From positions 1 to 33,283 of the forward strand of contig JALRHB010000004.1 in the NCBI GenBank assembly GCA_023253245.1: a DNA stretch of 33,283 nucleotides, written 5' to 3'. Shown in pieces: positions 18,442 to 31,292 of the stretch; positions within the stretch are counted from its first letter, which is position 1; each line of letters opens with the position of its first letter. The notes under the pieces are model-generated. The model saw only the letters and a program-made list of their open reading frames with translations. It did no database searches and had not been told where the DNA came from. A program made the position numbers and the translations under genes. This DNA is from Polynucleobacter sp. (lineage in GTDB: Bacteria; Pseudomonadota; Gammaproteobacteria; Burkholderiales; Burkholderiaceae).

Positions 18442-19107
18442 ATGATAACGAAAAACTCTAGCGCACTTGAACAATTATTTGCCAATAATCGTTCTTGGGC
18501 AGAGGCAATGGTTGCCGAAGATCCACAGTTCTTTAAGCGCTTACTTTCACAACAGGCCCCTGAGTACCTTTGGATTGGTTGCGCAGACAGTCGTGTACCC
18601 GCCAATGATATTGTTAACTTACTGCCAGGGGAATTATTTGTTCATCGCAATATTGCCAACGTAGTAGTGCATACCGATTTGAATTGCTTATCTGTCATTC
18701 AATTTGCGATTGACTTACTAAAGGTAAAACATATTTTGGTAGTAGGGCACTATGGCTGCTCCGGTGTTCATGCTGCTATGACCGATAAACGCGTTGGTCT
18801 TGCTGATAATTGGTTGCGTCATGTCAAAGATGTTCATCAAAAACATGAACGCTATCTTGGAGAAATCATTCCAAGCCCAAGAAGACATGATCGCTTGTGC
18901 GAACTTAATGTGATTGAACAAGTAGTCAATGTGTGCGAAACCACCATCGTGCAAGATGCTTGGGCAAGAGGCCAAGATCTTACTGTGCATGGCTGGACAT
19001 ATCGACTCGAGACAGGCCTAGTGAATGACTTGGGTATGTCTATTAGCTCGCCAGAAGAAATGAATGTCAGATACGCCAAATCTCTCTCGCGCTATGACGC
19101 TGAATAA
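18442..19107 (+). CDS. can: Beta-class carbonic anhydrase
   Basis: WIGCADSRVPAN, VVGHYGCSGVHAA zinc-ligand motifs. Confidence 0.95.
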   Translation: MITKNSSALEQLFANNRSWAEAMVAEDPQFFKRLLSQQAPEYLWIGCADSRVPANDIVNLLPGELFVHRNIANVVVHTDLNCLSVIQFAIDLLKVKHILVVGHYGCSGVHAAMTDKRVGLADNWLRHVKDVHQKHERYLGEIIPSPRRHDRLCELNVIEQVVNVCETTIVQDAWARGQDLTVHGWTYRLETGLVNDLGMSISSPEEMNVRYAKSLSRYDAE

Positions 19108-28481: not shown

Positions 28482-29378
28482 CTATTTCCAATTTTTTGCC
28501 TGCTGCGACAGGTATCTTTTAAATACTTTTGCTATTGGGGAAAGTTTTTTACCCTTGGGAACAACAATGTGCCAACTTGACTCAATTGGAAATTCTTTAC
28601 ATTTTAAGATGGCCACTTCTTCTTGATCAGCTTTCTCGCCAAGAGAATGCTTTGACAATACAGCTATACCTAGTCCGCCAATCACAGCTTGTTTAATTGC
28701 CTCATTGCTCCCAAGCTCTAATCTGATATTTGGCTTCATTTTTACTCTTTTAAAGTAGGCATCTGTTGCCATCCTAGTGCCAGAACCCTTCTCTCTAAGA
28801 ATAAATTTTTCATTTTTTAACAGCTGAAGATCAATGGATTTCTTCCTGCCCAAGGGATGGTCTCTAGAAGCAACCAATAACAGGGGGTTTGGCATAAACA
28901 CCTCATCTTCTATATCAACGTGCAGTGGTGGTTGTGACATGATGTAAAAATCATCCAAGTTCTCTTCTAATCTTTTAACCACACCATCACGATTGAGCAC
29001 CTCCAAGGAAATGTCTATTTGAGGATACTTCGCACAAAAAGCTCCTAATATTCTTGGGATGAAATATTTTGCAGTACTCACCACCGCGACTCTTAACTTA
29101 CCCCGCGTTAACCCTTTGATGCTATCAACTTCTTGCTCAAAAGCGCCCCACTCTTGGGAGATCGCTCTAGCAGTTTTTGCCAATTCGAGGCCCATTTGAG
29201 TTAAATGTACTTTTCTGGCCACTACTTCATAAAGTGGCACTCCAATAGCATCGCTAATCTCTTTAAGGCACATAGATGCCGTAGGTTGGGTAACGTGCAC
29301 CATACGAGCAGCTGCACTCACGCTACCAGTGTCTGCTAAAGCCAAAAAAAGACGTAATTGTCGAAAAGTAATATTCAT
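28482..29378 (-). CDS. LysR-family transcriptional regulator (CbbR/CmpR-like)
   Basis: N-terminal wHTH FRQLRLFLALADTGSVSAAARMVHVTQPTASMCLKEI; divergent from SbtA-like gene. Confidence 0.92.
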   Translation of the reverse strand: MNITFRQLRLFLALADTGSVSAAARMVHVTQPTASMCLKEISDAIGVPLYEVVARKVHLTQMGLELAKTARAISQEWGAFEQEVDSIKGLTRGKLRVAVVSTAKYFIPRILGAFCAKYPQIDISLEVLNRDGVVKRLEENLDDFYIMSQPPLHVDIEDEVFMPNPLLLVASRDHPLGRKKSIDLQLLKNEKFILREKGSGTRMATDAYFKRVKMKPNIRLELGSNEAIKQAVIGGLGIAVLSKHSLGEKADQEEVAILKCKEFPIESSWHIVVPKGKKLSPIAKVFKRYLSQQAKNWK

Positions 29379-29462
29379 AAGTTTTTACTGATATAAAACT
29401 TTTGTTTTTTTGATTTTACCTTATATGTTTATTTTCCTAAAATCAGAGCAAAAGGAAAATTT

Positions 29463-30422
29463 ATGACAAACCTATTAGATCCCTCAATTTTATTTTTCAT
29501 TTTTGGAATTTTTGCCGGTCTTATTAAATCTAATCTTGAAATTCCTCAACCGATCTCTCGTTTTCTCTCTCTATATCTTCTAATGGCACTAGGATTAAAA
29601 GGTGGCTTTGCTTTAAATAAGTCAGGATTCACCTCAGAAATTGGAATTAGCCTTGGTTTAGCAATTACCTTAGCCATCATCATTCCATTACTAGGCTACA
29701 ACTTGCTAAAACATAGGCTCGACAAACTGGATGCCGCCGCAATTGCTGCCACTTATGGATCCATTAGTGCGGTCACCTTTATAACAACGACGCAAGTTTT
29801 GGATCAAACAGGCATTCATTATGGCGGTCATATGGCTGCGGCAATGGCACTAATGGAGTCTCCCGCCATCATCATCGCGATAATTCTTGCTAATCGTATT
29901 CGGCAACAACGGCAGGGTACCGCCAGCCCGAACACCTCTCTAGGAAAAGTACTTCATGAATCATTTACTGATGGTGGGCAACTTTTACTACTAGGATCAT
30001 TAGCTGTGGGCTTGATTTCGGGGGATTCAGGCCATAAAGTCATGGCACCATTTTCAATTGATTTATTCAAAGGCCTGCTCGCATTCTTCTTGTTAGATAT
30101 GGGCTTAATTGCTGCGAGAAGTATTGGTGAGCTCAAGGGCAAGCCCCCAGTCACACTGGTATATGCTTTTATTGCGCCCCCGATTCACGCAATAATTGCT
30201 CTTAGCTTATGCCACTTATTTTATGTGCCGCTTGGTGACACAATTCTTTTGATGATTTTGGCAGCAAGTGCATCATATATTGCGGTACCGGCAGTTCTGC
30301 GCCATGCGATGCCTGAGGTGAATCCCGCCTTATATATGGCAATGTCGCTGGGGATTACTTTTCCTTTAAACATCATTTTAGGAATTCCTATCTATAGCGC
30401 CATTGCCAAGTATTTTGCTTAA
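29463..30422 (+). CDS. SbtA-like sodium-dependent bicarbonate transport family permease
   Basis: LKGGFALNKSGF, AATYGSISAVTFITTTQVL, AAAMALMESPAIIIAI, ASYIAVPAVLRHAMPEVNPALYMAMSLGITFPLNI. Confidence 0.9.
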   Translation: MTNLLDPSILFFIFGIFAGLIKSNLEIPQPISRFLSLYLLMALGLKGGFALNKSGFTSEIGISLGLAITLAIIIPLLGYNLLKHRLDKLDAAAIAATYGSISAVTFITTTQVLDQTGIHYGGHMAAAMALMESPAIIIAIILANRIRQQRQGTASPNTSLGKVLHESFTDGGQLLLLGSLAVGLISGDSGHKVMAPFSIDLFKGLLAFFLLDMGLIAARSIGELKGKPPVTLVYAFIAPPIHAIIALSLCHLFYVPLGDTILLMILAASASYIAVPAVLRHAMPEVNPALYMAMSLGITFPLNIILGIPIYSAIAKYFA

Positions 30423-30437
30423 GAATTTCAAATAAAT

Positions 30438-31292
30438 ATGTCCAGATACCTTAAACCTTATTTTGGATTGCAAGCAAGCCTGTTAACGCAACATGGCAAA
30501 GAAGCCATTATTTCTCCCGAACTACTTAGTACAAATGGACTGGAGGTAATTCATGTCAATAACTATGACACAGATAAATTGGGAACCTTTACTCGCGATA
30601 TTCCTAGATATGGCTCGCAGCTTGATGCCGCCAGAAAAAAGGCGAGAATTGGTATGGCGCTCTCTGATACCAAAATCGGAATTGCTAGTGAAGGGGCGTT
30701 TGGGAACGACCCATATACCGGCTTGCTCCCTTGGAATTACGAATTAGTAATCCTGATTGACGACACTCGCAATCTAGAAATTACTGGCTTTTATGGCGGG
30801 GAGGCACAAAGTGCGAGCAAGCAGGTAACTAGCTGGGATGAGGTAATTGCCTTCTTACCTGAAGCCCAATTTCCAAGTCACCAATTAGTCATAAGGCCTG
30901 ATGATGAATATCACCCTCTTTGCCGCAAAGGAATCAACACAATTGATTCCCTTGAGCTAGCTTACCACTGGGCTAAAAATCTCTCTAAAAACGGCAACAT
31001 TTTTTTGGAGAATGATCTGCGCGCTCATACAAACCCCACGCGTATAGCAAATATTTTAAAAGCTACACAAGACCTAGCCAAGAAATTGAACTCGCTTTGT
31101 CCAAAATGTGAATCCCCCGGATTCTCGGTTACTAAAACTAAAAAAGGTTTACTTTGCGCTAATTGTGGAGCCTCCACAAATCTACCTATTTCTAATATCT
31201 GGTCATGCTTAAACTGTAGGCACACAAAAGAAATTGCGATTACCAATCAAGCCGCAGCTGATCCATCAAGATGCAATTACTGCAATCCCTAA
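30438..31292 (+). CDS. DUF6671-like protein with C-terminal zinc ribbons
   Basis: GTFTRDIPRYGSQLDAARKKARIGMAL...GIASEGAFG; CPKC/CANC/CLNC/CNYC pairs; 15 nt after sbtA-like stop. Confidence 0.8.
   Translation: MSRYLKPYFGLQASLLTQHGKEAIISPELLSTNGLEVIHVNNYDTDKLGTFTRDIPRYGSQLDAARKKARIGMALSDTKIGIASEGAFGNDPYTGLLPWNYELVILIDDTRNLEITGFYGGEAQSASKQVTSWDEVIAFLPEAQFPSHQLVIRPDDEYHPLCRKGINTIDSLELAYHWAKNLSKNGNIFLENDLRAHTNPTRIANILKATQDLAKKLNSLCPKCESPGFSVTKTKKGLLCANCGASTNLPISNIWSCLNCRHTKEIAITNQAAADPSRCNYCNP

Follow-up and report, generated by a model that had tools for sequence, protein, structure and literature searches.

DUF6671 proteins accompany SbtA and other inorganic-carbon transporters: a candidate nucleotide-linked partner of bicarbonate uptake in Polynucleobacter and beyond

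The window analyzed here is the whole 33,283-nucleotide stretch of contig JALRHB010000004.1 from Polynucleobacter sp., and the locus was read within its 1.6-Mb assembly (323 contigs, 82% complete). The locus comprises three genes and a conserved intergenic element, with the following features:

28482..29378, minus strand: LysR-type regulator, CbbR-like, with HTH_1 and LysR_substrate domains, divergent from sbtA
29384..29419, no strand assigned: conserved footprint in the LysR-SbtA spacer, from an alignment of 13 spacers
29463..30422, plus strand: SbtA-family Na+/bicarbonate permease of 319 amino acids (PF05982, 371 bits)
30438..31292, plus strand: DUF6671 protein of 284 amino acids (PF20376, 174 bits), at the position that sbtB usually takes
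30468..31085, plus strand: predicted N-terminal ITPase-like domain of the DUF6671 protein, about residues 11-216 (AlphaFold, Foldseek, conservation)
31098..31289, plus strand: C-terminal tandem CxxC segment of the DUF6671 protein, zinc-ribbon-like (C221/224/240/243 and C257/260/279/282)

The starts of the divergent LysR and SbtA genes are separated by 84 nt, and the ATG of the DUF6671 gene follows the SbtA stop codon after 15 nt; sbtA and the DUF6671 gene are likely cotranscribed as one transcript. The preliminary description had reported the divergent LysR gene, the 15-nt distance and the lack of a PII-like gene. ORF coordinates and Pfam matches agree with all three: no PII-like ORF is found in the cluster beside sbtA, and the DUF6671 gene occupies that place. 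A β-carbonic anhydrase said to lie about 10 kb away, outside the cluster, is indeed encoded at 18442-19107 of the window, at a distance of 9.4 kb (Pro_CA match, 176 bits). RuBisCO, described as missing from the window, was also not found in the rest of the 82% complete genome or in any other of the 12 genus genomes tested, the remaining 11 being relatives of at least 99% completeness.

The regulator matches the Pfam profiles HTH_1 (60 bits) and LysR_substrate (172 bits). Its best NCBIfam match is CbbR with 237 bits, below the equivalog cut-off of 450 bits of a model built on one lineage. Of the earlier designation "CbbR/CmpR-like", the likeness to CbbR is thus fair, but this match does not establish identity as CbbR. 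With the CbbR/CmpR regulators of carbon fixation and inorganic-carbon (Ci) uptake genes it shares this top match and the divergent gene order, but it reaches only about half of the CbbR cut-off and no cbb operon is present. An alignment of 13 LysR-SbtA spacers from Polynucleobacter and other Burkholderiales revealed 16 invariant columns, each in or beside one of two boxes or the start codon of the LysR gene. The boxes, TTTACTGATA at 29384-29393 and TTGATTTTAC at 29410-29419, follow the consensus TTTAYCTATA...ATCGATTTTAC in these 13 spacers. The footprint at 29384-29419 is a probable LysR operator and promoter region to which the regulator would bind, and the occurrence of both boxes in Polynucleobacter as well as other Burkholderiales is consistent with LysR control. 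This conserved footprint is in line with the earlier description of the locus as a candidate regulated module; a promoter and terminator scan gave signals below or near chance.

The permease is a full-length match to the Sbt_1 profile PF05982 (371 bits, positions 1-307 of 308 covered), and its sole relative in the PDB is SbtA of Synechocystis (7cye, E 5.7e-30). The bicarbonate site of the latter is a docking model backed by mutants (PMC8352866). Two of the residues docked to HCO3- in Slr1512, S114 and S324, are kept in the Polynucleobacter protein, while Y140 is replaced by Met and S327 by Ala, as is the case in most of its relatives. On the strength of these two replacements among four docked residues (PMC8352866), one could propose that the permease transports no bicarbonate and that this SbtA-like clade handles another anion together with DUF6671. 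We regard this as improbable: the Na+ site is built of backbone atoms, so side-chain changes there say little, and the neighbors of DUF6671 also include the Ci-accumulating DabAB as well as purK/purE, tsaC and PEP carboxylase, CO2/HCO3- being the only substrate common to all of these. Judged by family and context, the permease is likely to transport HCO3-.

The arrangement resembles cyanobacterial SbtA-SbtB in that an SbtA permease gene is directly followed by a gene for a small soluble protein, which in cyanobacteria binds and hydrolyses adenyl nucleotides (PMC10991534, PMC8352866). Unlike there, no PII-like gene is present and the slot is filled by a protein with a predicted ITPase fold and zinc ribbons, a divergent LysR gene is added, two of the four docked HCO3- residues differ, and the host is heterotrophic, with no RuBisCO or carboxysome detected. 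In a phylum-wide sample, a PII-like gene follows sbtA in 21 of 27 SbtA loci outside the genus and DUF6671 in none of these 27. Where DUF6671 directly follows sbtA, in contrast, a PII gene lies next to SbtA in only one of 32 operons (p = 1e-9 compared with 21/27), but in 13 of 19 loci with DUF6671 elsewhere in the locus (p = 7e-7 for 1/32 against 13/19). The absence of a PII gene pointed out in the preliminary description is real and significant, and a DUF6671 gene directly after sbtA holds the place of the PII-like sbtB. Because of the 13 loci containing both, PII and DUF6671 are not strictly alternative, and the exclusion from the slot may partly be an effect of the SbtA subfamily, given that most of the sbtA genes that stand without DUF6671 in the genus have no PII either. 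The idea that DUF6671 is itself PII-like was ruled out, since it has no PII match and a different fold.

The assignment to DUF6671 is based on the PF20376 profile (174 bits compared with a cut-off of 24) together with the cysteine pattern of the family. The AlphaFold model of the protein has a mean pLDDT of 92 and a pTM of 0.87. All top eight PDB matches of the full-length protein identified by Foldseek, and all top nine of the N-domain, belong to the ITPase superfamily, led by an NTP pyrophosphatase of P. horikoshii, human ITPase, KomBC, YjjX, RdgB and Maf (E from 3e-4 upward, probability 0.87-1.0); the target TM-scores of 0.3-0.47 lie below 0.5, which makes the relation a distant one. Modelled alone, the N-domain again reaches a pLDDT of 92 and leaves the Foldseek list unchanged, and the order of its motifs had already pointed to an ITPase-like domain before the model existed. 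According to the model, the N-domain has the ITPase/Ham1/YjjX/Maf fold. It shares both fold (E 3e-4 to 3e-3, probability 1.0, target TM-scores of 0.37-0.45) and order of elements with the ITPase/Ham1-RdgB, YjjX and Maf pyrophosphatases, its T-x-H-G-K-E start resembles the T-x-N...K start of Ham1, and the same fold occurs in KomBC, a dITP-sensing complex containing an ITPase-fold chain. In contrast to the superfamily, DUF6671 has motifs of its own (DTDxLGTF, SEG[SA]FG and D[LM]RAHxNPxR) and a zinc-ribbon-like tail, and no match to the superfamily was found at the level of sequence. A sequence search of the PDB returned only chance matches and zinc-ribbon look-alikes; hhalign comparisons with ITPase families were not significant, and the positive control, Ham1 against YjjX, likewise failed. 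An ITPase-fold name also appears in the α-carboxysome literature, in which ham1 is listed as a cso-operon satellite gene of unknown function (PMC12918739); this shared name is a possible parallel to DUF6671.

Within 120 DUF6671 sequences, H19, K21, T45, D46, R57, K68, E85, E102, D193, R195 and R202 never vary, and D108 and K164 hardly do. With about 15 polar residues counted as invariant, this pattern resembles an active or ligand site. ITPase-fold enzymes typically are NTP pyrophosphatases, and both this fold and the resemblance of the invariant residues to an active site favor the main rival to a transporter partner: DUF6671 could be a house-cleaning or metabolic nucleotide pyrophosphatase for the low-CO2 or alkaline state, which shares a regulon with the transporters and leaves them untouched. 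We consider this possible but somewhat unlikely, and return to it below.

The four CxxC pairs noted in the preliminary description (C221/C224, C240/C243, C257/C260 and C279/C282) form two CxxC...CxxC units. Their eight cysteines are invariant in 62 homologues and conserved to 96-98% in the 120 sequences, and look like structural zinc ribbons. In principle, this two-zinc-ribbon pattern, the invariant His19 and the zinc site needed by DabA would also suit a metal protein, either a zinc carrier for DabA or carbonic anhydrase or a new carbonic anhydrase. Such a role seems highly improbable to us, as SbtA and SulP need no zinc, the cysteines are separate from the conserved ITPase-like pocket, and the ribbons, with weak matches to RPB12, eS27 and L37, resemble structural ones. 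DUF6671 had been thought of as a regulator, sensor or enzyme acting with SbtA: the predicted fold of the N-domain gives this idea a direction, namely nucleotide chemistry, whereas the CxxC pairs seem structural and the partner is not SbtA-specific.

Among the 31 Polynucleobacter genomes drawn, including the present one, 25 contain sbtA and 13 contain DUF6671. All 13 genomes with DUF6671 also carry sbtA, compared with 12 of the 18 without DUF6671 (p = 0.025). In 10 genomes, the two genes are adjacent and on the same strand; in two others (G224 and G242), they are apart. A further genome, G094, carries the remnants of sbtA and DUF6671 side by side, both decayed (L253:1175-2048), and its second sbtA copy (L254) is likewise broken, which amounts to a joint loss. 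One Polynucleobacter DUF6671 gene is located between a phosphatase-like gene and htpG (L147:8799-12441), and in another Polynucleobacter an sbtA gene without DUF6671 also adjoins htpG (L017:1-2442); this region is possibly a hot spot of exchange. In a second Polynucleobacter subtype (L059-L070), a gene for a TerC-Usp fusion is found near a LysR gene running in the same direction as sbtA, with terC about 1-3 kb upstream of sbtA. A contig binned as Rhodobacteraceae (L060) has a Polynucleobacter-like locus with a 71% identical DUF6671; it is probably mis-binned.

The preliminary description had called for a neighborhood survey across bacteria. This revealed that the sbtA-DUF6671 pair is not unique to this genome: it recurs in the 10 genus genomes and other Burkholderiales, and Arthrobacter plasmids carry it in a divergent form. 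Scanning the contigs of GTDB, we found at least 587 stretches with DUF6671 relatives, from which the best 80 were taken with 10-kb flanks. Within these best 80 of at least 587 loci, a Ci transporter is encoded within 10 kb in 67 cases: 45 with SbtA (five of them also with SulP), 18 with DabA and four with SulP alone. One of the other 13 loci, which lack SbtA, DabA and SulP, has dabB only, 4 nt upstream of DUF6671. By ORF clustering, the commonest neighbors in the best 80 loci, once DUF6671 and antisense artefacts are set aside, are SbtA, LysR, DabA and DabB, the latter corresponding in Pfam to an antiporter of the NADH-quinone-oxidoreductase type. In SbtA loci, DUF6671 often starts no more than 35 nt from the sbtA stop codon or overlaps it by about 3 nt, and the same short stop/start overlap is seen at several dabA loci.

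Since the best 80 loci are biased towards the query, we added taxonomically even draws at the level of family, phylum and order and from another class; phyla beyond Pseudomonadota are covered via best matches and plasmids only. Of 49 DUF6671 loci read in these draws, 31 lie no more than about 10 kb from a Ci transporter gene, compared with none of 40 random 20-kb control stretches, 39 of which come from the same genomes (Fisher p = 1.7e-11). A set of 119 dereplicated loci contains 90 with a Ci gene within 10 kb (SbtA 44, DabAB 39, SulP 7), 66 of the 119 having it within 300 bp, and 29 with no Ci transporter within 10 kb. Twelve of 18 genomes in which DUF6671 stands alone carry SbtA or DabA elsewhere, in two cases on the same contig at a distance of 10-13 kb; both are absent genome-wide in the other six. 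On plasmids of the PLSDB, a third source with annotation of its own, RefSeq naming places Ci genes beside DUF6671 in eight of 10 records, three as "sodium-dependent bicarbonate transport family permease" and five as NuoL plus DUF2309, with Arthrobacter, Nocardia, Mesorhizobium, Aminobacter and Ideonella as hosts.

The DabA-DabB system (DAB/DAC) is comparable to the Polynucleobacter locus in being LysR-flanked and in providing the nearest Ci gene, dabA or dabB, at 39 of the 119 DUF6671 loci, but its transporter is unrelated to SbtA. The earlier view of DUF6671 as an SbtA-specific partner has to be given up, as about as many copies accompany DabAB and some SulP; an SbtA-only partner is ruled out by these DabAB copies and the repeated occurrence with SulP. 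A tie to carbon fixation as such was likewise ruled out: only 12 of 40 genomes with DUF6671 encode RuBisCO, and not one of the 12 from the genus does. Most SbtA genomes outside the genus have no DUF6671, indicating that the protein is optional.

We calculated a maximum-likelihood tree of 120 DUF6671 proteins labelled with SbtA, Dab, SulP or none. The labels require at least 38 changes in all; if only switches between SbtA and Dab are counted, the minimum is 11. Both counts are rough, as the tree was computed quickly and contains some long branches. The labels are nevertheless clustered on the tree: shuffling gave a mean of 59 changes, and none of 200 shuffles was as low as 38. From the repeated switching between SbtA, Dab and SulP, we conclude that DUF6671 follows Ci uptake rather than one transporter. 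Could DUF6671 merely hitch-hike with Ci genes on mobile DNA or in common islands? Its presence on plasmids and its change of place within Polynucleobacter fit this idea. The repeated exchange among three unrelated Ci systems, the operon-like spacing and the joint decay of the adjacent genes in G094 all speak against it, and we give it a very small chance.

The wider neighborhood was scanned within 6 kb of 129 DUF6671 loci, with 40 random stretches as control. Genes of bicarbonate-related pathways comprise purK/purE (9/129), tsaC for threonylcarbamoyl-AMP synthase (17/129) and pyrC (12/129), compared with 0, 1 and 0 of the 40 control stretches. PurK, PEPC and TsaC are users of HCO3-, and the purK/purE, tsaC and pyrC neighbors fit a demand for HCO3-. 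Additional neighbors are ilvD (18, control 1/40), cysD (12, 1/40), terC (18, 0/40), raiA (5), P-type ATPases (8) and Na+/Ca2+ exchangers (6), the last three with controls of 0/40. This group suggests a setting of low CO2, alkaline conditions or metal stress. Four of its members (ilvD, cysD, raiA and terC) fit no pure Ci theme, and no theme covers all neighbors. For the pyrophosphatase proposal introduced above, this counts as support, since purK/E, pyrC, tsaC, cysD, ilvD, raiA, terC and Ca2+ exchangers together resemble a stress or growth-state island, and so does the fact that DUF6671 is tied to no single transporter. On the other hand, the frequent strict adjacency, the overlaps of about 3 nt with sbtA and dabA, and the SbtB slot point to a tighter connection with the transporters. 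The main competitor of our interpretation is still an NTP pyrophosphatase of metabolism that simply shares their regulon, albeit a somewhat unlikely one.

Our best reading is that DUF6671 hydrolyses or senses a nucleotide as a partner of Ci uptake, with substrate and action assigned by inference. The computation supports the domains, the gene order, the association with Ci transporters, the repeated exchange of partners, the exclusion from the SbtB slot and the predicted fold. SbtB is a nucleotide-binding ATPase/ADPase (PMC10991534), and with DUF6671 in its place, coupling to a nucleotide signal becomes the likeliest mechanism. Accordingly worded for the Polynucleobacter locus, the LysR protein would sense a metabolite of low Ci and open sbtA-DUF6671. 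SbtA would import HCO3- with Na+ and thereby supply the anaplerotic and biosynthetic carboxylations of a heterotroph that has no RuBisCO. DUF6671, presumably a soluble two-domain protein made of the ITPase-fold domain and a tandem zinc ribbon, would bind and probably hydrolyse a nucleotide that tracks the Ci or energy state, as fold and conservation suggest. By sensing, making or removing this nucleotide signal, it could then tune the uptake or use of HCO3-. HCO3- as substrate, a nucleotide as ligand and regulation as the function of DUF6671 are what we infer from these observations. We see about an even chance that the locus is a LysR-controlled Ci uptake operon in which DUF6671 couples uptake by SbtA to such a signal.

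Paired in turn with SbtA, DabAB and SulP, DUF6671 appears to serve Ci acquisition generally. We tentatively extend the interpretation, with clearly less than even confidence, to a general Ci component that reads or makes a nucleotide signal, controls or supports all three pumps and replaces SbtB after sbtA. DUF6671 probably is an overlooked part of bacterial CO2/bicarbonate acquisition. Autotrophs are limited in their growth by Ci uptake, and so are many heterotrophs at air-level CO2; to our knowledge, the regulation of Ci pumps outside the cyanobacteria is nearly unknown. The parts themselves, LysR, SbtA and a DUF family listed in Pfam, are already known. DUF6671 occurs in no paper that we found, those on Dab and SbtA included; subscription literature is mostly outside this coverage, and an earlier notice elsewhere is possible. 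The Ci toolkit as recently reviewed is confined to transporters and carbonic anhydrases (PMC10880623). A functionless family found with three unrelated pumps and in the SbtB slot, with the predicted fold of nucleotide pyrophosphatases, offers a concrete entry to this regulation. If our reading is true, bacteria share a second, PII-independent device for Ci signalling, DUF6671 gains a function, and the known Ci toolkit gains a part.

Some individual loci have neighbors of their own. Youngiibacter fragilis (L129:5355-10840) carries purK, an archaeal-type PEP carboxylase gene, purE, an MFS permease gene and DUF6671 on one strand, thus three HCO3-/CO2-related enzymes beside DUF6671. On two Mesorhizobium plasmids (L260:4538-8864 and L263:4631-8849), dabA is separated from DUF6671 by a cysD paralogue, apparently within one operon; cysD adjoins DUF6671 in 10 of the 129 loci. 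Finally, in a Methylobacter MAG (L134:7020-10831), the genes immediately upstream of DUF6671 encode a β-carbonic anhydrase and a Na+ symporter of the SBF/BASS type, which is possibly another Ci transporter.
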